A stretch of 64,000 nt of DNA from Mesorhizobium huakuii. GTDB lineage: Bacteria; Pseudomonadota; Alphaproteobacteria; Rhizobiales; Rhizobiaceae. Location of the stretch: the NCBI RefSeq assembly GCF_014189455.1, contig NZ_CP050296.1, positions 744,001 to 808,000 of the forward strand. Direction: 5' to 3'. The notes under the pieces were generated by a model. It was given only the letters and a program-made list of their open reading frames with translations. It was not told where the DNA came from and did no database searches. Shown here piece by piece: positions 6,948-42,389 of the stretch. Positions within the stretch are counted from its first letter, which is position 1. Each line of letters starts with the position of its first letter. A program made the translations under genes and the position numbers.

Positions 6948-9635
6948 TTGCTACTAAGCTGGACCGATGAGCTATTGTTCAGGACAGCTACCCGGGTCGA
7001 ATTGACCACAACAAGATTCAGTCTTGGCCGCACGAGCCGGGCCATTTTTTCTACCGCCAACTTGCCGGCGGCGATCGCTTTTGTCGTGCTTCTGGTCTGC
7101 GCCGTCGTTGCCGACCAGCAGAACAGCAGGGTCTCCGATCAACTGGCCCGTGCCGACGTGCTGGCCAAGGTCAACATCATTCGCGCCAAGCTCGAAGGCA
7201 ATATAAACGGCAATCTTCAGCTTGTGCAGGGGTTGGTTTCGGCCATCGATACCGAACCCTATATGGGCCAGCAAAGATTTGCCTCGCTTGCCCGCAATCT
7301 GTTCGAACAGAAATCGCAATTGCGCAACATTGCCGGCGCGCCCGACCTCGTCATCTCGTTGATGTATCCGATACAGGGCAACGAGAAGGCGATCGGGCTC
7401 GATTACCGCAAGAACGAAGCGCAGCGCACGGCAGCGCTCCGGGCGCGCGACCAGCGGGTGCTGGTGTTTGCCGGCCCGGTCGACCTTGCCCAAGGCGGGC
7501 GCGGCTTCATCGGCCGCATTCCGGTCTTTGTGCCGACCGCCGGCGGCGGCGATCGCTTCTGGGGCATCGTCTCGGCGGTGGTCGATGTCGATCGGCTCTA
7601 CGCGGCGAGCGGGCTGACCGATCAGGATCTCGATATCGATGTCGCGCTCACAGGCAAGGATGCGCTGGGCGGCGGCGGCGACCGCTTTTTCGGCGGCGAC
7701 CAGGTCGTCGCCGGAAATCCGGTATCGGCCGACGTGCAGTTGCCATCAGGCTCCTGGCAGATTTCGGCCATTCCCAAGGGCGGCTGGTCGGCGGCTCCGA
7801 AGAACGAGTGGACCTTGCGGTCGCTGATGTTGCTCGCCGGAGCGCTGGTGGTGCTGCCGATCATGGTGGCCGGCCGGCTATTCGGCGAAAGGCAGAAAAA
7901 CTACGCCGAGCTGAGGCGCCTGTCCGGGCGCCTGGAGCTGGCGCTTGAAGCCTCCGGCATCGGCGTTTGGGAACACGACCTCACCAGCAACGAAATGGTG
8001 TGGGATGACCGCGTCAACGAGATCTACGGCAAGTCAGCCGACGGCAAGCCGCGCGGCTATGATGACTGGGCGCAGACGATCCATCCTGAAGATCTCGGGC
8101 GGGCAAGACAGGACTTTGATTCGGCCTCGGCCAGTAAAGGCCCCTATTCCTCACAATACCGGCTCCTGCGCCCCGACGGCACCGTCCGCCATGTGCGCAC
8201 GCGCGCAACCTACTTCCAGGACATAGGCGGCACACCCAAGTTGATCGGCGCCGAGTGGGACGTGACCAGCGACGTGCTGCTCAACGAAAACCTCATTCGC
8301 GAGCGCCAGTTGACAGAATCGAAGAACGCCGAGCTCAATCTCGCCAAGGCGCATATCGAGTATGCGGCGCTGCACGATTCGCTGACCGGCCTGCCCAACC
8401 GCCGCTATCTCGATGAACTGCTGGCCGAAAACGGCGAACCGGACCGGCGCACGGCACTGCTGCACCTGGACCTCGATCGCTTCAAGCAGATCAACGACAC
8501 GCTCGGCCACGCCGCGGGCGATGCCATGCTGATGCATGCCTCCAGGGTCATCAAGGCCAATGCCAGCCGTGACGATTTCGTTGCGCGCATCGGCGGCGAC
8601 GAGTTCGTTTTGGTCAGCCATGGGCTTGATGACGACGAGCTCTCGGCACTTGCCGACCGCATCATCGAGGAGATGCGCCAGCCTGTCGATTATCGCGGCC
8701 ATCCGTGCCGCTTCGGGGTCAGCATCGGCATTGCCGCCAACAGCGGCGTCGACGTGAAGCAGTTGCTGGTCAACGCCGATCTCGCGCTTTATCGGGCGAA
8801 AAGTCGTGGCCGCAACCGCTTCGAATTCTTCAACGAGGAATTGCAGAGCGAGATCGTGCGGACCAAGCAGATCGCCGACGAGATTCTCGGCGGGCTGGAG
8901 CGGCACGAATTCATCGCCTACTATCAGCCGCAGTTCGACGCGAGCACGCTTGAGATCGTCGGCGTCGAGGCGTTGTCGCGCTGGAAGCATCCGCGAAGGG
9001 GTATCCTGGCCCCCGACGCCTACCTCAAGGTGGCCGACGAACTCAACGTCGTGGCGCTGATCGACCGCATCGTCCTCAAACACGCGCTGGAGAATTTCGA
9101 GCGCTGGTCGCGCAGTCATCTCAACATCCCGCGCGTGTCGGTCAACGTCTCTGCCAGGCGGCTGGAGGATAAGGACCTGATCGAGGGCCTGCGCAAGCTC
9201 GCCATCAAGGCGGGAACCGTGTCGTTCGAGCTGGTGGAGTCCATCTTCCTCGATGAAAACGACGATCTGGTCACCTGGAATATCGACCACATCAAGGAGC
9301 TCGGCATAGACATCGAGATCGACGATTTCGGCACCGGCCACGCCTCGATCGTCTCGCTGCTCAAGCTGCGGCCGCGTCGCCTCAAGATCGACCGTCAACT
9401 GATCACACCCATTGCCGGTTCAATGGCGCAACGGCACCTTGTGGCGTCGATCATCGAGATCGGCAAATCGCTCGGCATCGAAGTGGTTGCCGAGGGCGTC
9501 GAGACGATGGAGCACGCGCGTATCCTCAAGGAACTTGGCTGCGATATCTTGCAAGGCTACCTTTTTGGCCGGCCCATGGAGGCCAAGGCCTTCAAGGCCT
9601 TCGCCCAGTCGCGCAAATGGCTGGCCGCGGGGTAG
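6948..9635 (+). CDS. CHASE-PAS-GGDEF-EAL cyclic-di-GMP signalling protein
   Basis: An 895-residue membrane sensor. A first transmembrane helix lies at about 40-56, a periplasmic CHASE domain at about 75-225, and a second helix at about 291-311. A PAS domain follows (about 330-445, LEASGIGVWEHDL), then a GGDEF domain with an intact GGDEF motif at 549-553 and an EAL domain. In the EAL domain the catalytic motif is EALSRW, with NVSARRL, ELVESIFLDE, DDFGTGHAS and VVAEGVET all present. Both synthase and phosphodiesterase activities are therefore possible. No RxxD inhibitory site is obvious. The assigned start is a TTG. It stands alone, with about 220 bases free of genes upstream. Confidence 0.93.
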   Translation: MLLSWTDELLFRTATRVELTTTRFSLGRTSRAIFSTANLPAAIAFVVLLVCAVVADQQNSRVSDQLARADVLAKVNIIRAKLEGNINGNLQLVQGLVSAIDTEPYMGQQRFASLARNLFEQKSQLRNIAGAPDLVISLMYPIQGNEKAIGLDYRKNEAQRTAALRARDQRVLVFAGPVDLAQGGRGFIGRIPVFVPTAGGGDRFWGIVSAVVDVDRLYAASGLTDQDLDIDVALTGKDALGGGGDRFFGGDQVVAGNPVSADVQLPSGSWQISAIPKGGWSAAPKNEWTLRSLMLLAGALVVLPIMVAGRLFGERQKNYAELRRLSGRLELALEASGIGVWEHDLTSNEMVWDDRVNEIYGKSADGKPRGYDDWAQTIHPEDLGRARQDFDSASASKGPYSSQYRLLRPDGTVRHVRTRATYFQDIGGTPKLIGAEWDVTSDVLLNENLIRERQLTESKNAELNLAKAHIEYAALHDSLTGLPNRRYLDELLAENGEPDRRTALLHLDLDRFKQINDTLGHAAGDAMLMHASRVIKANASRDDFVARIGGDEFVLVSHGLDDDELSALADRIIEEMRQPVDYRGHPCRFGVSIGIAANSGVDVKQLLVNADLALYRAKSRGRNRFEFFNEELQSEIVRTKQIADEILGGLERHEFIAYYQPQFDASTLEIVGVEALSRWKHPRRGILAPDAYLKVADELNVVALIDRIVLKHALENFERWSRSHLNIPRVSVNVSARRLEDKDLIEGLRKLAIKAGTVSFELVESIFLDENDDLVTWNIDHIKELGIDIEIDDFGTGHASIVSLLKLRPRRLKIDRQLITPIAGSMAQRHLVASIIEIGKSLGIEVVAEGVETMEHARILKELGCDILQGYLFGRPMEAKAFKAFAQSRKWLAAG

Positions 9636-9898
9636 TTGGCCCTGCCCCTGGCGTTGCCCTTGGTCGCCACCTCACCCTGTTGCAGACCAATCGCCACATC
9701 GCTATATAGCCGCTGTCGGAAAAGGCAGAGTTGGTTTGGTAAGCCCAACTCCTCTCGGTAACGAGAGCTCTGGTCTTTGGCTTCGTGCACGAGATCCCCA
9801 CGACGAACATCGGACGCTGTTGAGCGCCCAATCGTTCGTCCGTGTGGCTCTCAACTCGAGGAACGCTCCGGTCGAACACATCGACCAAGGAGTAGTTC
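9636..9898. other. Intergenic region with a small perfect hairpin
   Basis: No gene is supported here. At 9752-9767 there is a 6-bp perfect stem closed by a GTAA (GNRA-type) tetraloop (CTCTCG-GTAA-CGAGAG). It is not followed by a T run, so it is not a terminator. It lies about 130 bases upstream of the FAD monooxygenase start and might be part of its leader. Confidence 0.3.
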
Positions 9899-11434
9899 AT
9901 GCCCAACCCGATCCCCTATGATGTCGTAATTGCCGGTGCCGGTCCGGTCGGCCTGTTTCTCGCCTGCGAGCTGCGCCTGGCAGGCCTCTCTGTGTTGGTG
10001 CTGGAGCAGGCCGAGAGCCCCAACTCGCCATTGAAGCGGCTTCCCTTCGGCATGCGCGGCCTTAACGTGCCCACCATCGAGGCCTTCCACCGCCGCGGCC
10101 TGCTGGACGACATTGCGCCGCCTGCCAACGATGGCTCGGGCGGCAAATTGGCCGCCGCGCACTGGATGCAGCAGCCGCGCCGCCCCGGCGGCCATTTCGC
10201 CGGCATCCAGTTCCACCTCGACGCCGTCGACAGCTCGAAATGGCCCTATCGCCTGCCAGACCCGGCGGGTAACAGCATGGCGGTCGAGATGGAGCAGTTG
10301 GAAACCATGCTCGCCACCCGCGCGACCGCGATGGGCGTCGAGATCAGGCGCAGCCTCGGCGTCGACGGCTTCACCCAGTCGGACGAAGGCGTGACCATCC
10401 GCGCCGGTGGCGAGACCTTTCACGCAAGCTGGCTCATCGGTTGCGATGGCGGCCGCAGCACGGTTCGCAAGCTTGGCGGCTTTGCCTTCACCGGCACCGA
10501 TGCCGAATTCACCGGCTATTCCGTCGAAGTCGAAATCGCCGATCCGGACACACTCAGCCTCGGCCGCCACTACACGCCGACGGGCATGTACACCTACTCC
10601 CGGCCAGGCACGATCGCGATGGTCGAGTTCGACGGGGCCGCTTTCCACCGGACAGAGCCGATCACGCTGGAGCATGTGCAGGCGGTGTTGCGCCGCGTGT
10701 CGGGCGCGGACGTCACCTTGGCGGCGCTGCGCCTCGCCACGACCTGGACCGATCGCGCCTACCAGGCGACCACCTACCGCAACAAGCGGGTGCTGCTTGC
10801 CGGCGACGCCGCCCACATCCATTCACCGCTCGGCGGCCAGGGGCTCAATCTCGGGCTCGGCGACGCGATGAACCTCGGCTGGAAGCTTGCCGCCACCATT
10901 CGCGGCGACGCGCCGGCCGGCCTGCTCGACAGCTATTTCGCTGAGCGGCATCCGGTGGGGGCGCAGGTTCTCGACTGGTCGCGCGCCCAGGTCGCGCTGA
11001 TGCGGCCAAGCCGCAGTTCGCGCGCGCTCGAAGCCATCATCCGCGATCTCATCGCCACAGGCGACGGCGCGACCTATTTCGCCGAGCGCGTCTGGGGCGT
11101 GTCGCTGCGCTACGATCTTGGCGGCAGCCACCCACTGGTCGGCCGCAGCGCGCCCGATTTCGAGCTGGCCGACGGGACGAGGCTCGGCGAACGCTTGAGG
11201 ACCGGGCAAGGCCTGCTGTTGGACTTCGATGCCCACCCTCCCCTGCAAGCGCTGGCCAGCCGCTGGCGCGGCCGGATCAGCTATGTCGCCGAGAATGCCA
11301 GGGAGCGGCTCGGCCTGGGCGCCCTGCTCGTGCGCCCGGATGGCTTCGTCGCCTGGGCTGCCGATGCTGAGCCTGATCTTGAGGAGGCTGCTCAGGCCGC
11401 GTCGAAGTGGTTAGGCGAGGCGGCGACGCTGTGA
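9899..11434 (+). CDS. FAD-dependent aromatic monooxygenase (PheA/TfdB-type hydroxylase)
   Basis: A 511-residue class A flavoprotein monooxygenase. The N-terminal Rossmann motif VVIAGAGPVGLFLACELRLAG (about 7-27), the DG motif GCDGGRSTVRK and the second FAD motif LLAGDAAHIHSPLGGQGLNLGLGDAMNLGWKLA are intact. The C-terminal thioredoxin-like extension typical of pentachlorophenol/phenol hydroxylases follows. It would hydroxylate an aromatic or polyketide-like substrate with NAD(P)H and O2; the substrate is unknown. It stands alone, followed by a cluster of palindromic repeats. Confidence 0.92.
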   Translation: MPNPIPYDVVIAGAGPVGLFLACELRLAGLSVLVLEQAESPNSPLKRLPFGMRGLNVPTIEAFHRRGLLDDIAPPANDGSGGKLAAAHWMQQPRRPGGHFAGIQFHLDAVDSSKWPYRLPDPAGNSMAVEMEQLETMLATRATAMGVEIRRSLGVDGFTQSDEGVTIRAGGETFHASWLIGCDGGRSTVRKLGGFAFTGTDAEFTGYSVEVEIADPDTLSLGRHYTPTGMYTYSRPGTIAMVEFDGAAFHRTEPITLEHVQAVLRRVSGADVTLAALRLATTWTDRAYQATTYRNKRVLLAGDAAHIHSPLGGQGLNLGLGDAMNLGWKLAATIRGDAPAGLLDSYFAERHPVGAQVLDWSRAQVALMRPSRSSRALEAIIRDLIATGDGATYFAERVWGVSLRYDLGGSHPLVGRSAPDFELADGTRLGERLRTGQGLLLDFDAHPPLQALASRWRGRISYVAENARERLGLGALLVRPDGFVAWAADAEPDLEEAAQAASKWLGEAATL

Positions 11435-11900
11435 TCTCCCCCTTGTGGGTCCCTCTGGAGGGAAAGGAAAGACGCCAAGGGCGGCGAACTCGCGCCCTTC
11501 CTCTCCCCCGTCGATCGGGGGAGAGGTGTCGAGCGAAGCTCGACGGAGTGTGGGGTCGACCTGGCTCGGCCATCGTTACTTCAAGCCGGGGCGATGCCTC
11601 GCCAGATTGAGGCTCCGTGGCGAGTTGTTAGCGGCAGTGACTTTGAGAACCGCCTTCCCCCACTCCGTCGCTGCTTCGCAGCGCCACCTCTCCCCTCCGG
11701 AGGGAGAGGAAGGGCGCCTGTCCGAACCGGATAGATGGGTAACAGTTTGAACCGGATACATGGGGAGAGGTGGCCTCGAAGCGGCCGGAGTGGGGGCTGG
11801 CGCCGCGATATGCGATCGCCCTGCCCACGAGGGGGGAGATCGGGCAGCTTCGGCGCCGCCCCTACCCTCCCGTGACTGAAAAACAAGGTAGGGTGTCGGG
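11435..11900. repeat. Cluster of palindromic intergenic repeats, copy R1
   Basis: The 535-base gap between the monooxygenase and the glutathione transferase holds several palindromes and no gene. Examples are CCTCTCCCCCG-TCGAT-CGGGGGAGAGG at 11500-11526 and GTCGAGC-GAA-GCTCGAC at 11528-11544, then a second set near 11660-11880. The same style of element (ctcccc...ggggag arms plus a cggagtg or cactccg core) recurs near 16.5, 29.1, 44.5, 46.9, 58.9 and 62.9 kb. It resembles the short dispersed palindromes known from rhizobial genomes. Confidence 0.7.
11724..11764. repeat. Two 16-bp direct repeats, possible insertion-sequence end remnant
   Basis: The words GAACCGGATAGATGGG (11724-11739) and GAACCGGATACATGGG (11749-11764) lie 25 bases apart and interrupt the palindromic repeat cluster. 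Closely spaced short direct repeats of this kind are typical of the ends of some transposons, but no transposase is nearby, so this is at most a scar. Confidence 0.35.
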
Positions 11901-11970
11901 TATGACGCCCGCCGTTCGTCCTCTGGATGCAAAACACAGACACACCCCACCAACCACCCGGAGCCTGCCA

Positions 11971-12612
11971 ATGCCCCCCACCATCACAGCCTTTGAACGA
12001 TCCCCCGATGGCGGCAAGGGACTGGCGCGCGATACGCGCGTTCGCTGGGCGCTCGAAGAGGTGGGGCAGCCTTATGAGGTTCGGCTTGTTTCCTTTGCCG
12101 GGATGAAGGCGCCTGGCCATCTGGCCATCCATCCCTTCGGCCAGATCCCCACCTATGAGGAAGGCTCTCTGTGCCTGTTCGAGACCGGCTCGATCGTCTT
12201 TCATCTTGCCGAGCAGCATGCCGGCCTGCTGCCCAGGGATCGCGATGCCCGCGCCCGCGCGATCACCTGGATGTTTGCCGCGCTCAACACCGTGGAGCCG
12301 CCGATCCTCGAGTTGACGACGGCAAGAATATTCGAAGCCGGCAGGTCCTGGGCCGAGGAGCGCCTGCCGCTGGTGAAAGACCGTGTTCGGGCAGTGCTGG
12401 GCAAGCTCTCGGCCTATCTGGGCGCCGCAGAATGGCTTGATGGTGCGTTCAGCGCGGGCGATCTGTTGATGGTATCGGTGCTGCTGCGCCTGAGAATGTC
12501 GGGCATTCTGGACGAATATAAAAACCTGGCTGCCTATGTGGCGCGCGGGGAAGCGCGGCCCGCTTATGCCAGGGCCTTCGCCGCGCAATTCGTCTTCAAC
12601 GCCCCATCATAA
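11971..12612 (+). CDS. Glutathione S-transferase family protein
   Basis: A 213-residue cytosolic glutathione transferase. The N-terminal thioredoxin-fold domain (about 1-80) shows HPFGQIPTYEEGSLCLFETGSIVFHLAEQH, containing the cis-Pro and the ESG/ETGSI glutathione-binding loop; the C-terminal domain is all-helical with a GAFSAGDLLMVSVLLRL segment near the usual N-capping box. The ATG at 11971 is chosen because GGAG lies seven bases upstream; a longer open frame upstream runs through repeats. It stands alone; the substrate is unknown. Confidence 0.9.
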   Translation: MPPTITAFERSPDGGKGLARDTRVRWALEEVGQPYEVRLVSFAGMKAPGHLAIHPFGQIPTYEEGSLCLFETGSIVFHLAEQHAGLLPRDRDARARAITWMFAALNTVEPPILELTTARIFEAGRSWAEERLPLVKDRVRAVLGKLSAYLGAAEWLDGAFSAGDLLMVSVLLRLRMSGILDEYKNLAAYVARGEARPAYARAFAAQFVFNAPS

Positions 12613-12670
12613 GGCTGAGCTGACAGCAACTTGAGCGCTTCGGCGCGACCACAGCGGCGGTGAGCGGGCG

Positions 12671-13563
12671 TCAGGCGAACGCGGCCGCTGCGGGCGGCGG
12701 ATCGCGGCCGTCAGGCCCTGGAACGGGAACGTATCGGGCATAGGAGGCGCTCAAGCGCGCCTGCCCGTTCGAACGCGACCGGAGTATGTCCTCCAGTTTG
12801 AACATGTTTACGAGCGGCACCATCGCGTTGATGACGACTGCACTGTAGCGAGCTTCCTGGTCCCCGATCCGGCCACGACGGCTCTTCAGTTCGCCGGTGA
12901 TGCTGCCGGCATAGTCTGCCGGCGTCACCACCTCGACCTTCATGATCGGCTCGAGCAGTTGTATGCCGAGGCGCGGCGCGGCTTCGCGAAAGCAGGCGCG
13001 GCCGGCAACCTCGAAAGCCAGGGCCGAGGAGTCGGTCTCGTGCCAGGCGCAGTCCACCAGCATCGCCTTGACGCCGATCATCGGAAAGCCCGCGAACGGC
13101 CCCGCCGACAGGGCGCTGCGCAGCCCCTTTTCGACCCCCGCCACATACTCGTCCGGGATCGCACCGCCGACGATCCTGGACGCGAACACCAAGTCCGGAT
13201 TGTACGCGTTCGGCTCGAACATGATCTTGACGCGGGCGAACTGACCCGTGCCGGCGAACAGCTTCTTGTGGGTGTAGTCCTGCTGATGGCTGCGGGTGAT
13301 CGTCTCGCGATAGGCCACCTGCGGGGCGCCGACATTCACCGCAAGATTGAACTCGCGGCGCACGCGGTCGATGATGCCCTCGAGTTCAACTTCGCCCATG
13401 GCGGCGACGATCGTCTGACCGGATCCTCGTCCCACTTGACGTGGAGCCAGGGATCCTCGTCCGCCAGCCTCGACAGGGCGATACGCAGCTTCCCCTCGTC
13501 GGCTCTCGATTTCGCCTCGATCGCGATTTGCAGCAAAGGCCATGGCGCGGCAGGTTTTTCCAT
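12671..13563 (-). pseudogene. Elongation factor G fragment (domains III-V), frameshifted
   Basis: The sequence matches the C-terminal part of EF-G in two frames. Codons from 13563 give the domain III stretch [28 protein letters not shown]; after a one-base loss (or two-base gain) at about 13421-13428 a second frame continues with [25 protein letters not shown], the domain [22 protein letters not shown] and the domain [32 protein letters not shown]. The GTPase domain and domain II are absent upstream. It cannot act as a translocase. It looks like a decayed second fusA-type gene or a fragment. Confidence 0.85.
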
Positions 13564-13648
13564 GACGATATGGTTGCAGGTTGACCAGAAGTCCGCAACG
13601 GTGAGGACGAGCGCCGTCAACAGCCGCTTCCTTGCCCCGGCGAGACGG

Positions 13649-14011
13649 CTATGGATATTTCGCCTTTGCGCCCGCCGGGCTCAAATCGCCCTGCAATTCC
13701 TTGGGCAGCGGCAGGCTCGAGCATTGCAGGTGCACGTTGCGGGCGTAAAACTTCCGATGCTTCTGCTCGGCCTCCTTGGTGGCCGCTATGATGCCCAGCC
13801 CATACGGGCCAAGTGCCGCGAATTCCCAGCCCGGATGCTGTTTCTCGCGAACCGCATAGTCGGCAGCCGCCGCCCGGGCCTGCTGGCATTGCGGCGACGC
13901 CCACTTCGGGTCCTGTGGCGAAAGCGACGCGCCGTAGTCGACCGGAGAGGTCGCGCATCCCGCCACCGTCGCGGCCAATGCGGACATTGCAATGCGCATC
14001 GCAATTCTCAT
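13649..14011 (-). CDS. Small putative lipoprotein
   Basis: A 120-residue protein whose N-terminus (MRIAMRIAMSALAATVAGCATSP) is a lipoprotein signal peptide with a VAGC lipobox. The mature part has one more cysteine pair candidate (PQCQQAR and LQCSSLP) and no recognised domain. The start at 14011 gives the signal peptide directly; an upstream in-frame start would add an Arg-rich stretch. Function unknown, probably anchored in the inner or outer membrane. Confidence 0.7.
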   Translation of the reverse strand: MRIAMRIAMSALAATVAGCATSPVDYGASLSPQDPKWASPQCQQARAAAADYAVREKQHPGWEFAALGPYGLGIIAATKEAEQKHRKFYARNVHLQCSSLPLPKELQGDLSPAGAKAKYP

Positions 14012-14250
14012 CTCTGAAGCCCTTCCCGGTCTCCGCAGACCTGGCCGGCGTCCCCGCCATGCCAATCACGTATCCGCGATGTCCCGCCCCTGCGCTTGCC
14101 ATAGGCCTCGCTTCATGTCGATCTTCCCGAAGCCAGATTCGGGCTGTGTGCCGGGAACCAAATGACAGGCGAGACTGTTCAGTTGTAACTTTGACACAGC
14201 GCTGACACGCCCAGCCGGTTGGGCACGCGGCGACCTTGAGGAGTTCTCAT

Positions 14251-14691
14251 ATGAAGATTTCGTCCAGTTTTCGTTCCATCGCGGTTGCCGCCATCGCCAC
14301 TGCCGGCATTGGCTTTGCCAGCGCAGCACACGCCGACAGCGGCACGATCCGTTTCGCCGTTTACAAGGCGGCCTTCTTCGTCGGCGGCTCCGGCGGCGAA
14401 GGCACGTTCACCTTCCACGGTAAGTCTTATCCGATCTCCATCGGCGCCGTTTCGGGCGGCCTCGCCTTCGGCGTTTCCAAGACCTATTTCCACGGCACGG
14501 TGCGCCATATCAGGCGCGCCCGCGATGTGACGGGGGTCTATGGCGCGGCGGGTGGCGGCGGCACGATCGGCAAGGGCGCCCAGGTAATCGTCATGACAAA
14601 CGACAAGGGTGCCCAGCTCGAACTCACCGGCAAGCAGGTTGGCCTGCAGGTCAACGCCGATCTCAGCGGCTTTGCCATCTCGCTGAAGTAA
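14251..14691 (+). CDS. Conserved periplasmic protein of unknown function
   Basis: A 146-residue protein with a Sec signal peptide (cleavage after about ASAAHA, residue 28). The mature part is Gly-rich (GGSGGEGTFTFHG, GVYGAAGGGGTIGKGAQ) and predicted beta-rich, weakly reminiscent of SYLF/EipA-like envelope proteins, but that link is only an impression. The ATG at 14251 follows a strong GAGGAG site at about 14238-14243. It is convergent with the ABC-F gene. Confidence 0.75.
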   Translation: MKISSSFRSIAVAAIATAGIGFASAAHADSGTIRFAVYKAAFFVGGSGGEGTFTFHGKSYPISIGAVSGGLAFGVSKTYFHGTVRHIRRARDVTGVYGAAGGGGTIGKGAQVIVMTNDKGAQLELTGKQVGLQVNADLSGFAISLK

Positions 14692-14729
14692 TGGCCTCCG
14701 CCCTTTCGGGGGCACGCTGGACACCAAAG

Positions 14730-14757
14730 AGGGCGGCGTCAGCTCGACGACCGCCCT
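14730..14757. terminator. Bidirectional hairpin between convergent genes
   Basis: An AGGGCGG / CCGCCCT stem with a 14-base loop, followed on the plus strand by tgttgt, lies between the stops of the periplasmic protein gene (14691) and the ABC-F gene (14763). It could end transcripts from the plus strand; the short stem makes it moderate evidence. Confidence 0.45.
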
Positions 14758-14762
14758 TGTTG

Positions 14763-16385
<1,623 letters not shown>

Positions 16386-16483
16386 GCGGTTTCCGGACTG
16401 GGCCTGCGCTGAAAGGATTTGCCCGGCGCCTTACGCGAATGCGTCTGTCGGGGGAAGAGGCCCAAGCGCCGCAGCAGGCGGCG

Positions 16484-16600
16484 AGGTCGGATGAGGGGTG
16501 CTCCAGCTTGGCGCCGACAGCACTCCGTCACCCACCCCTCAACCGTCTCGGCGCTAGCGCGCCGATCCACCTTCTCCCACAGGGGGAGAAGGAAAAACCC
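16484..16600. repeat. Palindromic intergenic repeat, copy R2
   Basis: Between the divergent ABC-F and small secreted protein genes there is no other gene. This part contains ggtcggatgaggggtg ... cacccctcaaccgtctcggcgc followed by ggcgctagcgcgcc and cttctcccacagggggagaag palindromes. It is the same family as the copies near 29.1 and 44.5 kb, with the same gaggggtg/cacccctc core. Confidence 0.65.
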
Positions 16601-16726
16601 GCCCAGAAACACTCCAGAAACAAGATTCAACATCCCGGAAAAACTGGCGAAAAGATCGTCTGCGATAACCATTCCTGTAGCAACCGAACGGCGGTCGCCA
16701 CACAACGCAGAGGGATGGTCCCGACA

Positions 16727-17038
16727 ATGCAACGACGTTCGACCGGATGGATGGCTGCCGTAACCGGCATTTCGCTTGCCATGCTTGCGATCGCACAGTC
16801 GGGTGCACAGGCGGCGGTTACCCGGAGCGAATATTGCAGCCGGCTCGGTCTTCAACTCGACGGAGCCATCCAGACCAAAGCCGAACCCGGTGCCAGTGCA
16901 AGCCAGATCGCGCAGGCAACGGCACTGCAGGACAAGGCAAACCGGTTCTGTGCCGAGCGCAAGCAGGCGCAAGGCATCCGGACTTACGCCAACGCCCTGA
17001 AACTTCTCGGCGTGACACCGGTCGACCTCGACCAGTGA
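16727..17038 (+). CDS. Small secreted protein, two conserved cysteines
   Basis: A 103-residue protein with a Sec signal peptide (cleavage after SGAQA) and two cysteines in the mature part (SEYCSRLG and NRFCAERK) that could form a disulfide across a helical hairpin. No family is recognised. The ATG at 16727 is preceded by AGAGGG at a long 12-base spacing; an ATG at 16715 is also possible. The His/Lys-rich protein gene follows after 26 bases, so the two are probably cotranscribed. Confidence 0.65.
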   Translation: MQRRSTGWMAAVTGISLAMLAIAQSGAQAAVTRSEYCSRLGLQLDGAIQTKAEPGASASQIAQATALQDKANRFCAERKQAQGIRTYANALKLLGVTPVDLDQ

Positions 17039-17064
17039 CAGCAGCCATCAAAGGAAAGCCCATC

Positions 17065-17415
17065 ATGAACAAGCCCTTCCTCTCCGCCCTCGGCCTGGCC
17101 ATCGCTCTCGGTCTGGCAATGCCGGTTATCGGCACCGCCAATGCGGCGGCCACGACCACCACCACGACCGCTCCGGCGACGACGACCGCCCCCGCGACCG
17201 CTCCGGCGGCTCCCGCTGCCGTGGACGCGGCGAAGACGCCGGTCAAGGCGGCCGCGCACAAGCGTCACCGGTACCACAAGAAGCACCACGGGCATGTGCG
17301 CAAGCACGCTCACCGGCACGCGGGCAAGAGGCACGGCCACAAGCACGTCGCCAAGAAGCACCACCACAAGCGCACCCACAAGAAGCACGGTCACAAGCAC
17401 GCCAAGGCGGCTTGA
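17065..17415 (+). CDS. Secreted His/Lys-rich protein
   Basis: A 116-residue protein. A signal peptide (MNKPFLSALGLAIALGLAMP..., cleavage after about TANA) is followed by a Thr/Ala/Pro-rich spacer and then a C-terminal half made almost wholly of His, Lys, Arg and Gly (HKRHRYHKKHHGHVRKHAH and on). Such a tail would be strongly basic and could bind metal ions, polyanions or nucleic acid; this is inference. It has a shorter relative at 33583-33795 with the same N-terminus and a KHKKH tail. AAGGAA at 17051-17056 is the ribosome site. A hairpin terminator follows. Confidence 0.8.
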   Translation: MNKPFLSALGLAIALGLAMPVIGTANAAATTTTTTAPATTTAPATAPAAPAAVDAAKTPVKAAAHKRHRYHKKHHGHVRKHAHRHAGKRHGHKHVAKKHHHKRTHKKHGHKHAKAA

Positions 17416-17451
17416 TCGCTAACTTTCTTTCTGACTTCCTCCCGGGAAAAG

Positions 17452-17485
17452 GCCGCCACTCGCTAGAAAGCGAGGGCGGCTTTTT
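17452..17485 (+). terminator. Intrinsic terminator after the His/Lys-rich gene
   Basis: Stem GCCGCC-a-CTCGCT / AGCGAG-GGCGGC with an AGAA loop and one bulged base, followed by TTTTT. This is a textbook rho-independent terminator 36 bases after the stop codon. Confidence 0.85.
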
Positions 17486-17570
17486 CTGTGTGCAAATGGC
17501 GAGACTACCTAGCTGAAAGTGCGCGAAAACAGGCGCATACAGCAATTCCACGATTCAGATCGTGAACGCC

Positions 17571-18203
17571 TCAAGCCTCGCCGAGCGCCGCCCGAACCTC
17601 CCGCCCGCTCATGCCGCTGTCGAAGACTGAGGTGCCAGGATCGAAGCGCCTGGCCTGCGACAGCGGCCCGACCACGACCGGATCGAAGCCGGCGTCGCTC
17701 ACCAGCCGCACCGCCAAGGCAACAGCCTCTTCGTCATCTCCGGCAAGCGGGATGCCGATCCTGTCGCCAACGCGGTGCGCCTGCGATTGCAGCGTCGTCC
17801 ACATCACCGTGCTGAAGGCGCGAACCAGTTTCGCGCGCGGCAGCAGGCGCGCGACGGCAAAAGCCACGCCGTCCTTACGGGCCAGCCCTGCGTCGCCGGA
17901 GGCCGCGCCGTCGCGCGGCGGGTCGGGCACGGTGGCGTCGAGCAGCACCTTGTCGCCGAGCGCTGCCGCGATCTCGGCCGCGACACCAGGCCAGGCCCGA
18001 AACGGGATGGCGGCCAGCACGACATCCTCGCCCGCGACGGCATCGATGGCCGAGCCCGCCACGGCCTTGCCGCCAAGGCCGGAAAGCATCGAGCGCAGCC
18101 GCTCGGGATGCCGTACGCCAAAGGTCACCTCATGTCCGGCCTCAGCCCACAGCCGTCCGACCGTGCCGCCGATCATGCCGGCGCCCAGAATTCCTATTTT
18201 CAT
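17571..18203 (-). CDS. NAD(P)-binding oxidoreductase, F420-dependent NADP reductase-like
   Basis: A 210-residue Rossmann protein. The N-terminus MKIGILGAGMIGGTVGRLWAEAGHEV is a GxGxxG dinucleotide site, and the whole resembles the NADP oxidoreductase coenzyme F420-dependent fold found in bacterial NADPH reductases of unknown substrate (AFSTVMWTTLQ region near the middle). AGGAGG five bases before the ATG at 18203 decides the start; the longer frame to 18236 overlaps the preceding SDR gene. It follows the SDR gene by 26 bases and is probably cotranscribed with it. Confidence 0.83.
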   Translation of the reverse strand: MKIGILGAGMIGGTVGRLWAEAGHEVTFGVRHPERLRSMLSGLGGKAVAGSAIDAVAGEDVVLAAIPFRAWPGVAAEIAAALGDKVLLDATVPDPPRDGAASGDAGLARKDGVAFAVARLLPRAKLVRAFSTVMWTTLQSQAHRVGDRIGIPLAGDDEEAVALAVRLVSDAGFDPVVVGPLSQARRFDPGTSVFDSGMSGREVRAALGEA

Positions 18204-18229
18204 CCTCGCCTCCTGCTGAACTGCCACAC

Positions 18230-18928
18230 TCACCACGGCAGTCTTTTGCCGTCGCGGAAAAAGCCGCCGGTCGGGCCATCATCCGGCAAGGTCGCGGCCC
18301 ACACGATCCCGGCCGCCCCTTGCGCCACCGGGCGTCCGCCCGGCCCGCCCATATCGGTGGCGACCCATCCCGGGCAGATGGCGTTGACCAGCACGCCGGA
18401 GCCGCGCAGTTCCGCCGCCAGCACGCAGGTCAGCGCATTGAGCGTCGCCTTCGAGGTCGAATAGGCCGGGGCGCCTGCCCCCATCGAGGCCAGCGAACCG
18501 CCTTCGGAGGAGACATTGACCAGCCGGCCGTGACCGCCCGCCCTGAGCAGCGGCGCGAAAGCCGCCGCCACCCGCCAGGCGCCGAAGACATTGGTCTCGA
18601 ACGCCTCGCGGATGACTGTCCAGTCGGGCCGCGAGGCGCGCGAACCGGTGTCGTAGTGGATGGCGGCATTGTTGATCAGCACGTCGAGCCGGCCGAACCG
18701 GCGCTCGACCTCAGCGGCGGCTTGCGCTGCTGCGTCAGGCGCTGCGACATCGAGCGCAATCGCCTCGAGATGGCCCTCGAGCCCTTTCGCCGCCGCCGCG
18801 CCCTTGGCGACATCGCGCACGCCAAGCAGCACCGTGAAGCCGAGTTTCGCCAACTGGCGGCCGGTCTCCAGCCCGATGCCGCGATTGGCGCCGGTGACGA
18901 GGGCGACTTTGTTGGGATGTGTGGTCAT
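18230..18928 (-). CDS. SDR family oxidoreductase (carbonyl reductase-like)
   Basis: A 232-residue classical short-chain dehydrogenase: TGANRGIG cofactor motif (about 13-20), NNAAIHY (about 86-92), catalytic Ser in NVSSEGGSL and the YSTSK active site (Tyr and Lys intact), then CPGWVATDMGG. It resembles plant and bacterial carbonyl reductases that reduce small ketones or aldehydes with NADPH. It is the first gene of a two-gene unit with the F420-reductase-like gene and is divergent from a glutathione transferase gene, suggesting a detoxification role (inference). Confidence 0.92.
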   Translation of the reverse strand: MTTHPNKVALVTGANRGIGLETGRQLAKLGFTVLLGVRDVAKGAAAAKGLEGHLEAIALDVAAPDAAAQAAAEVERRFGRLDVLINNAAIHYDTGSRASRPDWTVIREAFETNVFGAWRVAAAFAPLLRAGGHGRLVNVSSEGGSLASMGAGAPAYSTSKATLNALTCVLAAELRGSGVLVNAICPGWVATDMGGPGGRPVAQGAAGIVWAATLPDDGPTGGFFRDGKRLPW

Positions 18929-19000
18929 GTGGGAATGCCTCTGTATGTCGTCTCAGGGAAAGATGGCACGGACGGAATTGATTTATTAGGCGGTGGAGAT

Positions 19001-19038
19001 CGCAATCATTGCGCGATGGAATGCATGAATTGATTGCG
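19001..19038. promoter_or_regulatory. Inverted repeat in the SDR/GST divergent promoter region
   Basis: CGCAATCA (19001-19008) and TGATTGCG (19031-19038) form 8-bp perfect arms separated by 22 bases, between the starts of the divergent SDR and glutathione transferase genes. It may be an operator for a regulator encoded elsewhere; no regulator gene is adjacent. Confidence 0.3.
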
Positions 19039-19100
19039 CAGGAATCGGGTGTCTTCCGGCATCGCGTCATGCGATCGTCCAGCCATCACGAGGACGGTCC

Positions 19101-19730
19101 ATGCTCACGCTTCACGATTATCTGCCATCGCAAAATGGCTGGAAAGTCCGGGTCCTGCTCGGCCTGCTGGAGATCCCTTACGAGACCCGCATCGTCTCGA
19201 TTTTCGAGGGCGAGAGCCACACCGATGCGTTCCAAAAACTCAACCCGGCAGGCGCCGTTCCCGTGCTCCAGCTCGAGGACGGCAGTGCCATCGCCGAATC
19301 CAATGCGATCCTCGCCTACCTCGCCGAAGGCACGCCGCTCCTGCCGGCGGATCGCTACCGCCGCGCCAAAATCATGCAATGGCTGTTCTTCGAACAGTAC
19401 AATGTCGAGCCCGTCATCGGCTCGCTGCGCTTCTGGACCTTGACCGGACGGCTCGAGCGCAACCAGGCCATGGTTGCCGGCAAGCGCGAGGCCGGCGCAC
19501 GCACGCTCGCCGCTCTGAACCGCAGCCTTGGCGAGACGCCGTTCCTCACCGGAAACGACCTCACGATCGCCGACATCGCCGTCTATGCCTACAGCCACCG
19601 CGCCGGGGATTGCGGCTTTTCTCCAACGGACTACCCGGCATTCCTCGCCTGGGCCGGCCGCGTGCGCGGCGCCATCGGCGAGGGCTATCCTGTCCACCCC
19701 TACAGCATCGACCCGCATTCGGGTGGCTGA
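19101..19730 (+). CDS. Glutathione S-transferase family protein
   Basis: A 209-residue glutathione transferase. The N-terminal domain shows NGWKVRVLLGLLEIPYE, NPAGAVPVLQLEDGSAIAESNAILAYLAEG (cis-Pro and ESNAI glutathione site); the C-terminal helical domain has FLTGNDLTIADIAVYAYSHRAGDCGF, the canonical N-capping box region. GAGGAC upstream of the ATG serves as ribosome site. It is divergent from an SDR gene and followed by an Rrf2 regulator 100 bases downstream, from which it is separated by an operator-like palindrome. The substrate is unknown. Confidence 0.92.
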   Translation: MLTLHDYLPSQNGWKVRVLLGLLEIPYETRIVSIFEGESHTDAFQKLNPAGAVPVLQLEDGSAIAESNAILAYLAEGTPLLPADRYRRAKIMQWLFFEQYNVEPVIGSLRFWTLTGRLERNQAMVAGKREAGARTLAALNRSLGETPFLTGNDLTIADIAVYAYSHRAGDCGFSPTDYPAFLAWAGRVRGAIGEGYPVHPYSIDPHSGG

Positions 19731-39091: not shown

Positions 39092-39151
39092 CATTGACAG
39101 AAGACCATGATGTGTCACACTCGCGGCGGGATATAGTGGAGAGCTTGCATC

Positions 39152-39262
39152 ATGAAGAAGATCTACGAGCGGCCGGCTCTGATCAAGAAGGGCAATCTGA
39201 AATCGATCACGGCTGCGACCAACGGCCCGGTCGTGACCTCGAATCCTCCGATACCGCAATAA
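39152..39262 (+). CDS. Putative RiPP precursor with lasso-type leader (36 residues)
   Basis: A 36-codon gene. The N-terminal part contains YERPALIKKGNLKSIT, which fits the YxxPxLxxxGxxxxxT leader of lasso peptide precursors bound by the RRE/B1 protein; Thr20 would be the residue before last of the leader. Cleavage after Ala21 would leave a 15-residue core, ATNGPVVTSNPPIPQ, that has no Asp or Glu at position 7-9, so the normal lasso ring cannot form. GGAGAG lies about nine bases before the ATG. No maturation genes are near. It ends one base from the convergent gene. Confidence 0.65.
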   Translation: MKKIYERPALIKKGNLKSITAATNGPVVTSNPPIPQ

Positions 39263-40694: not shown

Positions 40695-42389
40695 TCAGCC
40701 ACCAAGCGCATATTTCACCAGATGGCCCATGGTCAGGGACCTGCCTCCGATAGGCGGTTCCCAGTTCGGATCCTGGATCAGATACGAATGACCGTCTCCA
40801 TAGGCCAGGCCGACCAGCGTTTCCGCAACGATACGACCTCCCACCGGGCCCAGATGGACCGGCTCCTCGTCGCCCTTGCTGCCCTTTTTCGAAGCGCGCT
40901 TGAACCAGTCGTGCTGCGCCTCCGCCAGCACATAGTACCAAAGCGGCGCATTGCCAGCGAATTCCCCATCGATGTCGACTACGCTCTTTGCACCTTTCAT
41001 CTCGTCGAGGACGGCTTTTCCTATCTTCAGATCGGCATCGGGAATAACAGGCACCCCCATCGCCTGCGCCACGCTCTGTCCGCTTGGCATGCGCAAGGCG
41101 AGGCCGCGGAGCAGATTCCGCGCCGCGAGGTTGGCCGGGTCGTTTTTCGGATCGATCGGCTTGGCTTGCAGTTGTTCGAGCGTGAGCGGTGGTGAAGCCG
41201 GCACCGTCTTTGAAAACTCGGGAAGGAACCCAAGCGGATTCACCAGCGACGTGTCGATCTTGTACGCCGGCTGAGCCCGATGCTTGCCGCCCTTTTTACC
41301 TGACCCGTCAATGTCGAAGAACAAGCTCCAGTCGATGGCCCATTGGGTTGGAAATTCGTCGAAGCCGTTCAGGCCTCTGTTGGCGACGCCCGCGAATATG
41401 AAGAAGCGGCCGGCAAGTCCGCGAGCCTTCTCGTCAGGCGTTGCCGACAACGGATCGTCGCCCCCATTCAGCTCGGTATTCAGCCGATAGATCGGCCTCA
41501 CCATCGAATGGCCAAACCGGTAGCCGGCGACCGAAAATTCCAGGGGCATGTAGGGCGCGTTGCGCCAGTGGAAGAACTGAAGCTTGGGCTTCTTTTCGGC
41601 GGCACTGGCAACTGACCGGCGGTGGGGGAGGATTTCGTCGATCAACTCAGCACCGCAGATACGCGGCAGGAAGTCGTTGAGAACCACATACTGATAGTGC
41701 CAACGCACCATGCGCTGGACTTCATCGAAGGTGGCTCCTTTCAGTTTTGGCTCGTCCATCAGCCGGTTGTGCAAGCGCATGAATATGCCGTGTAACTGGG
41801 AGACGATGACGTTCTCGTCGTTGCGCTTGTCCCCGATGAGTGCGCGGGCCGCGGTAGCGGGATTTTCCGGATCGCGGTAGCGCGGGAGATCCCGCGACGG
41901 TGAAGGCTTGTTCAGCTCGAGCAGCTGTTTCCCCAGCCGAAACTTGCCGTCGATATACAAATAGGGCTGGTCTGCCGGCCCACGGCCGTAGACGCTGTCC
42001 AGGTCAAGGCGGGGCGTCCTGAAATCCACCAGGCTGTCCGGATCATTCATCTGCATCAGCAAGGACGAAGGGTCGAAAGTGATGTCGTGGTCGATGAACT
42101 GACCGAGATAGGTATATCCAGCCGCGATGCCGGTGTTTTCTTCGTCATCCTGAATATGCTTGTCTGTCTCCGCCGCGGCCGTAGGCCTGTTGTCCGCGGT
42201 TTTCTCGGGATCGGCCGTCATCGCGTTCCCCAACGCCAGAAGCGCGCTCTGGGAATGAACCGCTGGAGCGAGCTCCCTGAACATCCGGCCGAAGCGGCCT
42301 TCGAACAAGGATGACCGGCGCGAGACATCGGCGCCTCTGATGCCGCCACCATGTGGGCTGAACGAACTTTTGGCTGCACTGGATTCCAT
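40695..42389 (-). CDS. Animal-type heme peroxidase family protein
   Basis: A 564-residue protein of the animal heme peroxidase (peroxidase-cyclooxygenase) superfamily. The distal site GYTYLGQFIDHDITFDP has the Gln and His (about 97 and 101) and the Ca-binding Asp; the proximal His is in GYRFGHSMVRPIYRL, with HGIFMRLHNRL and WHYQYVVLNDFLPRICG in between. No signal peptide is visible. Bacterial members often are secreted by type I systems and form hypohalous acids; whether this one is exported is unclear. The family assignment is firm, the substrate unknown. Confidence 0.92.
   Translation of the reverse strand: MESSAAKSSFSPHGGGIRGADVSRRSSLFEGRFGRMFRELAPAVHSQSALLALGNAMTADPEKTADNRPTAAAETDKHIQDDEENTGIAAGYTYLGQFIDHDITFDPSSLLMQMNDPDSLVDFRTPRLDLDSVYGRGPADQPYLYIDGKFRLGKQLLELNKPSPSRDLPRYRDPENPATAARALIGDKRNDENVIVSQLHGIFMRLHNRLMDEPKLKGATFDEVQRMVRWHYQYVVLNDFLPRICGAELIDEILPHRRSVASAAEKKPKLQFFHWRNAPYMPLEFSVAGYRFGHSMVRPIYRLNTELNGGDDPLSATPDEKARGLAGRFFIFAGVANRGLNGFDEFPTQWAIDWSLFFDIDGSGKKGGKHRAQPAYKIDTSLVNPLGFLPEFSKTVPASPPLTLEQLQAKPIDPKNDPANLAARNLLRGLALRMPSGQSVAQAMGVPVIPDADLKIGKAVLDEMKGAKSVVDIDGEFAGNAPLWYYVLAEAQHDWFKRASKKGSKGDEEPVHLGPVGGRIVAETLVGLAYGDGHSYLIQDPNWEPPIGGRSLTMGHLVKYALGG

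Follow-up and report, generated by a model that had tools for sequence, protein, structure and literature searches.

Short precursors with lasso-type leaders scattered in Mesorhizobium genomes are probably trimmed and phosphorylated by a distant cyclase-free cluster

A short gene with a lasso-type leader

The window, that is the whole stretch of 64 kb analysed from the genome of Mesorhizobium huakuii (C1:744001-808000), carries on its + strand an ORF of 36 codons (39152-39262) whose product is MKKIYERPALIKKGNLKSITAATNGPVVTSNPPIPQ. Its leader region MKKIYERPALIKKGNLKSITA (39152..39214, + strand), which is under purifying selection, fits the pattern Y(-17)xxP(-14)xL(-12)xxxG(-8)xxxxxT(-2), with Ala at -1, and thus reproduces exactly the YxxPxLxxxGxxxxxT spacing of lasso leaders. 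Placing the threonine at -2 leaves a core of 15 residues, ATNGPVVTSNPPIPQ (39215..39259, + strand), the presumed cleavage after Ala(-1) being taken from the specificity of lasso B2 proteases, and a TAA stop codon follows (39260..39262, + strand). This core contains neither Asp nor Glu, including at positions 7-9 where one is needed for the isopeptide ring, and a lasso ring is therefore impossible. It does contain Thr, as well as a Ser that lies at position 9 and not 5 (codon 39239..39241, + strand) and that we propose as phosphate acceptor, given the conservation of Ser in the family described below. The initial annotation of this DNA had reported a frame of 36 residues with a lasso-type leader of exact spacing and a 15-residue core unable to close the ring, and both observations are confirmed by the sequence and its translation. 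No NCBIfam or Pfam model reaches its cut-off on the peptide; matches below cut-off were obtained with lasso_leader_L3 (15.9 of 19 bits), lasso_cyano (20.8 of 33) and DUF5972 (16 of 22.6).

The ORF is flanked by genes for a WD40 protein and for a product that matches SdrD_B below cut-off, and a nearby gene on the - strand (40695-42389) encodes an animal-type haem peroxidase domain (PF03098). A tblastn search of the 64-kb window with the PqqD, B2, cyclase, kinase and NTP_transf_5 proteins of the same genome retrieved none of them at E<=1e-3 and only two ABC-ATPase stretches, in agreement with the earlier remark that no B1, B2 or cyclase gene lies close by.

The gene also appears to have its own promoter, with a -35 element TTGACA (39094..39099, + strand), a spacer of 16 nucleotides and a -10 element CACACT (39116..39121, + strand) preceded by TG (extended -10), followed by a ribosome-binding site GGAGAG 8 nt 5' of the ATG (39138..39143, + strand). 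The -10 element was read against the family consensus TGnCATTAT, and the placement of TTGAC is common in the family. Indeed, among 181 distinct members with a leader-HMM score >=20 and at least 100 nt of upstream DNA, 115 have TTGAC 40-80 nt 5' of the start, 89 of them at 54-59 nt, compared with 5.4 on average and 12 at most when the mononucleotides were shuffled 50 times; these 115 cases are not independent events, since many upstream regions share descent, and 66 members have no TTGAC element. Similarly, GGAGAG occurs within 150 nt upstream of 86 of the 181 members, versus 16 of the downstream stretches. The spacing between TTGAC and the start suggests that most precursor genes are transcribed individually.

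Used as sole query, the window peptide finds a match at E<=0.1 in 94 of 146 Mesorhizobium genomes. The pN/pS of the leader codons is 0.23 over 17 homologues, and six orthologues of the window gene give a pS of 0.34 against a pN of 0.031. Judging from the exact leader spacing, the purifying selection and the promoter, the ORF is a real gene, and a chance ORF is ruled out by conservation, pN/pS and promoter. The initial annotation had proposed to collect homologues and would have been abandoned had the frame lacked conservation; the collection found the 36-residue frame conserved in relatives.

A large family of precursors with variable cores

A profile built from 25 such peptides, all from Mesorhizobium genomes (A1), has at least 813 matches at E<=1e-3, spread over 100 of the 146 genomes of the genus (about eight per genome on average); the counts per genome are possibly lower bounds, the best 54 candidates of each having been scored, and some matches arise by construction because the rows of A1 come from genomes of the genus. 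The window genome holds eight precursors, scattered across 2 Mb (C1:497, 587, 783, 821, 843, 1479, 1533 and 2582 kb). The window gene, which the initial annotation had treated as a lone odd peptide, is thus one of eight, and these copies also rule out a single relic gene. Cores from this genome include QVVTSRPAA, APATSGR, FVASGPV, GCGSSVCLT and QIVASGVILGE. In 64 of 136 precursor-holding loci, some of which overlap, two to four precursors with differing cores occur together. Precursors are 27-38 residues long, and their cores, mostly of 6-16 residues in relatives, are short, mostly neutral and rich in Pro and Gly.

Conservation was examined on 187 distinct peptides derived from 263 matches to a leader HMM (score >=15, with a start codon and a stop within the locus), which spans little beyond the leader; seven of these peptides come from outside the genus and also figure in the set of 37 outside cores discussed below. 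The commonest residues of the family spell YEKPVLVKKGRLSAVTA, and Gly(-8) and Thr(-2) are conserved in 133 and 147 of the 187 peptides, respectively. Asp or Glu is found in 34 of the 187 cores and at positions 7-9 in eight, being absent from these positions in the other 179. Ser is present in the core of 186 of the 187, a count that carries some selection bias since the loci were mostly picked with the full-length profile A1, versus 141 on average and 153 at most when the residues were shuffled 500 times. In 108 of the 186 full-length cores it occupies position 5. The only Ser-free core belongs to a shortened copy of 23 residues in genome G024 (L002, from 1344), directly 5' of the window gene's orthologue.

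Two clusters with PqqD and B2 in the window genome

The initial annotation had named the lack of any RRE protein in the whole genome as decisive against its reading, but the genome search found PqqD/RRE loci. Family matches above cut-off lie at C1:3.62, 3.65 and 3.45 Mb, the last with PqqD only. The two PqqD-B2 pairs of the genome are separated by about 30 kb from each other and by 2.84-2.87 Mb from the window gene.

The first, cluster A, is a lasso cluster of the canonical kind and encodes a precursor, PqqD, B2, a cyclase (NF033535, 794 bits for a cut-off of 525), an HprK-like protein, an ABC exporter and an NTP_transf_5 protein. The core of its precursor begins with GGGGSTAIDASFP and has Asp at position 9. 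The cluster (L077, G000 C1:3605001-3625000, positions 8866-19290) is of the phosphorylated-lasso type, its precursor combining Asp9 with a C-terminal Ser, and it adjoins genes that appear, by eye, to encode polysaccharide export and sugar transferase functions.

The second, cluster B (G000 C1:3651557-3654302), lies 2.87 Mb from the window gene and comprises four genes, of which those for PqqD/RRE, the B2 protease and an HprK-like kinase form one compact run, with a convergent NTP_transf_5 gene. The RRE (B1) and B2 both score above cut-off (PF05402, 46.7 bits; NF033537 lasso_biosyn_B2, 69.9 bits for a cut-off of 33), NTP_transf_5 reaches 91.9 bits with PF14907, and PqqD-B resembles TfuB1 (E 4.5e-6) and TbiB1 (7e-4). 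Each of the 23 aligned loci contains the four genes, as do G384 and G508. B2 keeps its Cys and His in the 23 loci, and the acidic third residue of the triad varies. The kinase matches HprK family models below cut-off (36.2 of 200 bits and 17.7 of 33.3), and the best fold matches of its predicted structure (mean pLDDT 92.6) are PEP carboxykinases (TM about 0.5), with no HPr kinase among the best 50 fold matches listed; HPr kinases and PEP carboxykinases have a P-loop core in common. A sequence search of solved structures for relatives of the kinase, B2 and NTP_transf_5 gave no meaningful match. The His, P-loop Lys and Asp-Asp of the kinase are invariant in 23 of 23 loci and correspond to the motif named for lasso kinases (PMC9266682).

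With cluster A proteins as tblastn queries, the fetched neighbourhoods of cluster B contain no cyclase, and no exporter within or adjoining the four genes; the exporter matches lie at least about 4 kb off and cover the ATPase part only, except in L155, where the cluster A exporter itself is found. In L079, a scan of five neighbouring proteins gave no signal peptidase match. Precursors are mostly far from cluster B, and precursor-like ORFs adjoin it in L080, L081, L083 and L085.

Precursors follow cluster B across Mesorhizobium

The cluster B kinase has a match at E<=1e-30 in 97 of the 146 Mesorhizobium genomes and the cluster A cyclase at E<=1e-100 in 103. All 97 kinase-positive genomes hold 3-26 precursor matches, compared with the 49 kinase-negative genomes, of which 46 have no precursor and three have one each. 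When both genes are considered, at least three precursors are found in 92 of 92 genomes with kinase and cyclase, a class that takes in G050 (split cyclase) and G077 (first third matches), and the five genomes with kinase only, including G122, which is 79% complete, have 6-15 precursors each. Of the 11 genomes with cyclase only, none reaches three precursors, eight having none and three having one, and precursors are found in none of the 38 genomes devoid of both genes. Precursors therefore follow cluster B, with the reservation that co-occurrence within one genus is partly shared ancestry and that the Fisher test applied to these classes ignores relatedness, so that its values are not probabilities. 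Cluster B, distributed over the genus in step with the precursor family, is the candidate trans-acting maturase.

Some individual genomes deserve mention. In G050 the cluster A cyclase is divided between two frames (C1:628807-630683), and in G077 only its first third is matched (C1:3583089-3583754); cluster B is retained in both genomes, alongside 12 and 6 precursor matches, respectively. The lone precursors of L248, L249 and L250 (genomes G134, G018 and G118) occur where cluster A is kept and cluster B is absent, and are perhaps relics left after its loss.

These distributions bear on the idea that the canonical lasso machinery, cluster A with its cyclase, matures the orphan precursors into peptides with unusual rings, or that the latter are decoys. 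Cluster A does exist in the window genome and the leader of its precursor has the same YxxPxL...T pattern, but profile A1 misses this precursor even at E<=5, and 179 of the 187 family cores lack an acidic residue at positions 7-9. Moreover, the five genomes without a cyclase match still have 6-15 precursors each, and those with cyclase and without cluster B have one at most. An ordinary lasso precursor served by cluster A is thus disfavoured by the genomes holding just one of the two clusters, and we regard maturation by cluster A as very unlikely.

A further idea is that the peptides are regulatory and bind, titrate or control the RRE through their leader-like part without giving rise to any mature product. 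Some copies are indeed very short, and in some Thr(-2) or Gly(-8) is missing; the shortened copy of G024 stands beside the orthologue of the window gene. Against this, the core Ser is constrained separately from the leader that would bind the RRE, and neighbouring copies with variable cores are typical of RiPP precursors. This is the least probable of the accounts considered here, and the separately conserved Ser, together with the joint occurrence with B1 and B2, likewise disfavours the suggestion of the initial annotation that a leader-like peptide could have another use.

Clusters and precursors outside the genus

In a set of 397 genomes of the order, the kinase was detected at E<=1e-30 in 11 from outside Mesorhizobium, and PqqD, B2, kinase and NTP_transf_5 are found together in all 11. 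A weaker kinase match in G182 (3e-11) has neither PqqD nor B2 within the 18 kb examined. Searches by tblastn with cyclase A found no cyclase in nine outside neighbourhoods of 10.9-18 kb, nor in the short loci of G384 and G508 or the 12.5 kb locus of Kaistia defluvii (L256).

A second profile (A2) detects precursors at E<=1e-3 in 10 of the 11 kinase-positive outside genomes, partly by construction for G471, G275, G508, G520 and G420, because A2 contains their peptides; it includes none from G188, G302, G303 and G531. Each positive genome has at least 2-13 precursors at E<=0.01, and no other outside genome has a match at E<=1e-3, the best 20 candidates per genome having been scored in both cases. 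Single weak matches (E 0.0017-0.0094) occur in G182, G217, G299 and G496. The eleventh genome, G221, has cluster B and no precursor detected by A2, and a scan of L146 for leader-like ORFs with a loose pattern was also empty. Precursor-like ORFs lie within about 3 kb of the cluster in L145, L147, L148, L150 and L151. Four-gene clusters together with precursors thus recur in other families of the order.

Ser is present in 37 of 37 outside cores, at position 5 in 25, the cores having been selected with A2, whose core columns include Ser. In the four genomes that gave no rows to A2, it is found in 17 of 17 cores, at position 5 in 12; one of the 37, and of the 17, is a long frame of G303 with a Peptidase_S74 domain, in which a Ser is expected anyway. 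In this frame (L143, 5908-6254, - strand), which is unlike the remaining, short precursors, a leader-like YHKPTLTKGSVLSDVTA is in frame with the Peptidase_S74 endosialidase chaperone domain.

Comparison with known systems

As in lasso peptides, the system has a leader of the expected pattern, an RRE (B1) and a Cys-protease (B2), both unlinked to the window gene, but it differs from them in lacking the ring Asp or Glu at positions 7-9 and a cyclase among the proposed maturation genes. It also resembles the phosphorylated lasso peptides paeninodin, pseudomycoidin and Bsf, which combine RRE, B2 and an HprK-like kinase as cluster B does, pseudomycoidin and Bsf having in addition an annotated nucleotidyltransferase comparable to NTP_transf_5 (PMC9266682, PMC10368454). 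In these pathways Ser is phosphorylated on the linear precursor, as we propose here, and the leader of BsfA has the register of the window leader (Y-17, P-14, L-12 and position -2), with Ile at -2 (PMC9266682, PMC10368454). They nevertheless possess a cyclase, as described there, which cluster B lacks. Phosphorylated lasso peptides also carry the ring-closing acidic residue, and the window core has no acidic residue.

The closest system found is that of the linear polyphosphorylated peptides (LPPs) of Bacillota, RiPPs described in 2026 with an RRE, an HprK-like kinase and an NTP transferase and without a cyclase (PMC13381572). LPPs are characterised by multiple phosphates on a core Ser, the residue that is near-invariant in the present cores. 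The likeness to cluster B extends from the discrete RRE, the kinase, the NTP transferase and the lack of an own cyclase to a YxxP leader motif, a Ser near the N-terminus of the core and a frequent location near a phosphorylated-lasso cluster of the same genome, the distance here being 30 kb. Several differences are nonetheless apparent from the same description: LPPs rely on a SpI-like signal peptidase where the present system has a lasso-type B2 protease; their cluster includes an MsbA-like exporter, none being linked to cluster B; their leader motif YxxPxVLxHQxIxFETxxS is not matched by the family studied here; and their precursors have 35-200 residues and are encoded in the cluster, contrary to the short and mostly distant ones reported above. 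The hosts differ too, LPPs being called restricted to Bacillota by their authors, compared with Alphaproteobacteria here (PMC13381572). The present system would thus work like LPPs yet without three of their features as described.

Prochlorosins provide another parallel, in which one ProcM matures many scattered precursors with a conserved leader and a variable core. The likeness lies in a single promiscuous maturase acting on many precursors, the enzymes and the chemistry being unrelated. No description of a rhizobial version of the system was found in the literature searched, which took in no preprints and few subscription papers.

Proposed maturation

We propose, with a probability of roughly 0.7, that the window gene is the orphan precursor of a linear RiPP that is matured in trans by cluster B, phosphorylated on Ser and cleaved by B2. 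The RRE would bind the YxxPxL leader and recruit the precursor, the HprK-like kinase would phosphorylate the conserved core Ser, B2 would cleave behind Ala(-1), and NTP_transf_5 may extend the phosphate with another group. A linear phosphorylated or phospho-decorated peptide, of 15 residues for the window gene, would result, and a single cluster B would serve many fast-changing precursors in trans. The distant four-gene cluster, devoid of cyclase, thus probably trims the precursors and attaches a phosphate to their conserved serine.

Several characterised enzymes are consistent with this scheme. HprK-like kinases phosphorylate Ser of RiPP precursors, namely Ser3 of BsfA, Ser3 of LppA and the C-terminal Ser of paeninodin (PMC10368454, PMC9266682, PMC13381572), with the help of the RRE in the case of Bsf (PMC10368454). 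The near-invariant Ser would thus be the type of residue on which such kinases act. The annotated nucleotidyltransferase PsmN of pseudomycoidin is described as required for the addition of hexoses to phosphorylated Ser (PMC9266682, PMC10368454). The NTP transferase of LPPs appeared inactive in reconstitution (PMC13381572).

A simpler scheme would consist of leader trimming alone, in which B1 and B2 free short signal peptides that bear no modification, and the targets of the kinase and NTP_transf_5 lie elsewhere. Short, mostly neutral cores rich in Pro and Gly would suit such signals, but kinase and NTP_transf_5 accompany RRE and B2 in all 23 aligned loci, Ser is the one near-invariant core residue, and the kinases of LPPs and Bsf are reported to act on the precursor itself (PMC13381572, PMC10368454). 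We consider trimming alone unlikely and favour maturation with phosphorylation by cluster B.

The initial annotation had also suggested a new RiPP class served by an unlinked maturase. The unlinked maturase now has a candidate 2.87 Mb away, but the concept is not wholly new in view of the LPPs (PMC13381572). We lean, with little more than even confidence, towards a new group of RiPPs in Hyphomicrobiales, in which a cyclase-free cassette of B1, B2, kinase and NTP_transf_5 would convert up to about two dozen precursors, encoded genome-wide and each transcribed separately, in trans into short linear Ser-phosphorylated or phospho-glycosylated peptides, and which may derive from a phosphorylated-lasso pathway that lost its cyclase, paralleling the LPPs of Bacillota.

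Significance

Genome mining seeks RiPP precursors next to their enzymes. The roughly 800 precursor matches reported here lie mostly away from the cluster that apparently serves them, and tools based on clusters would therefore miss them. The findings further suggest that a lasso-type B1-B2 pair acts without cyclase outside Bacillota. Short and simple substrates of 27-38 residues make the chemistry of kinase, protease and NTP_transf_5 directly testable, and the system could serve to study what the NTP transferase does. Since Mesorhizobium species live in symbiosis with legumes, a coded repertoire of modified peptides would have a wider interest. If they do form a new RiPP group, the variable cores may represent a secreted signal or recognition repertoire of soil and root-nodule bacteria.
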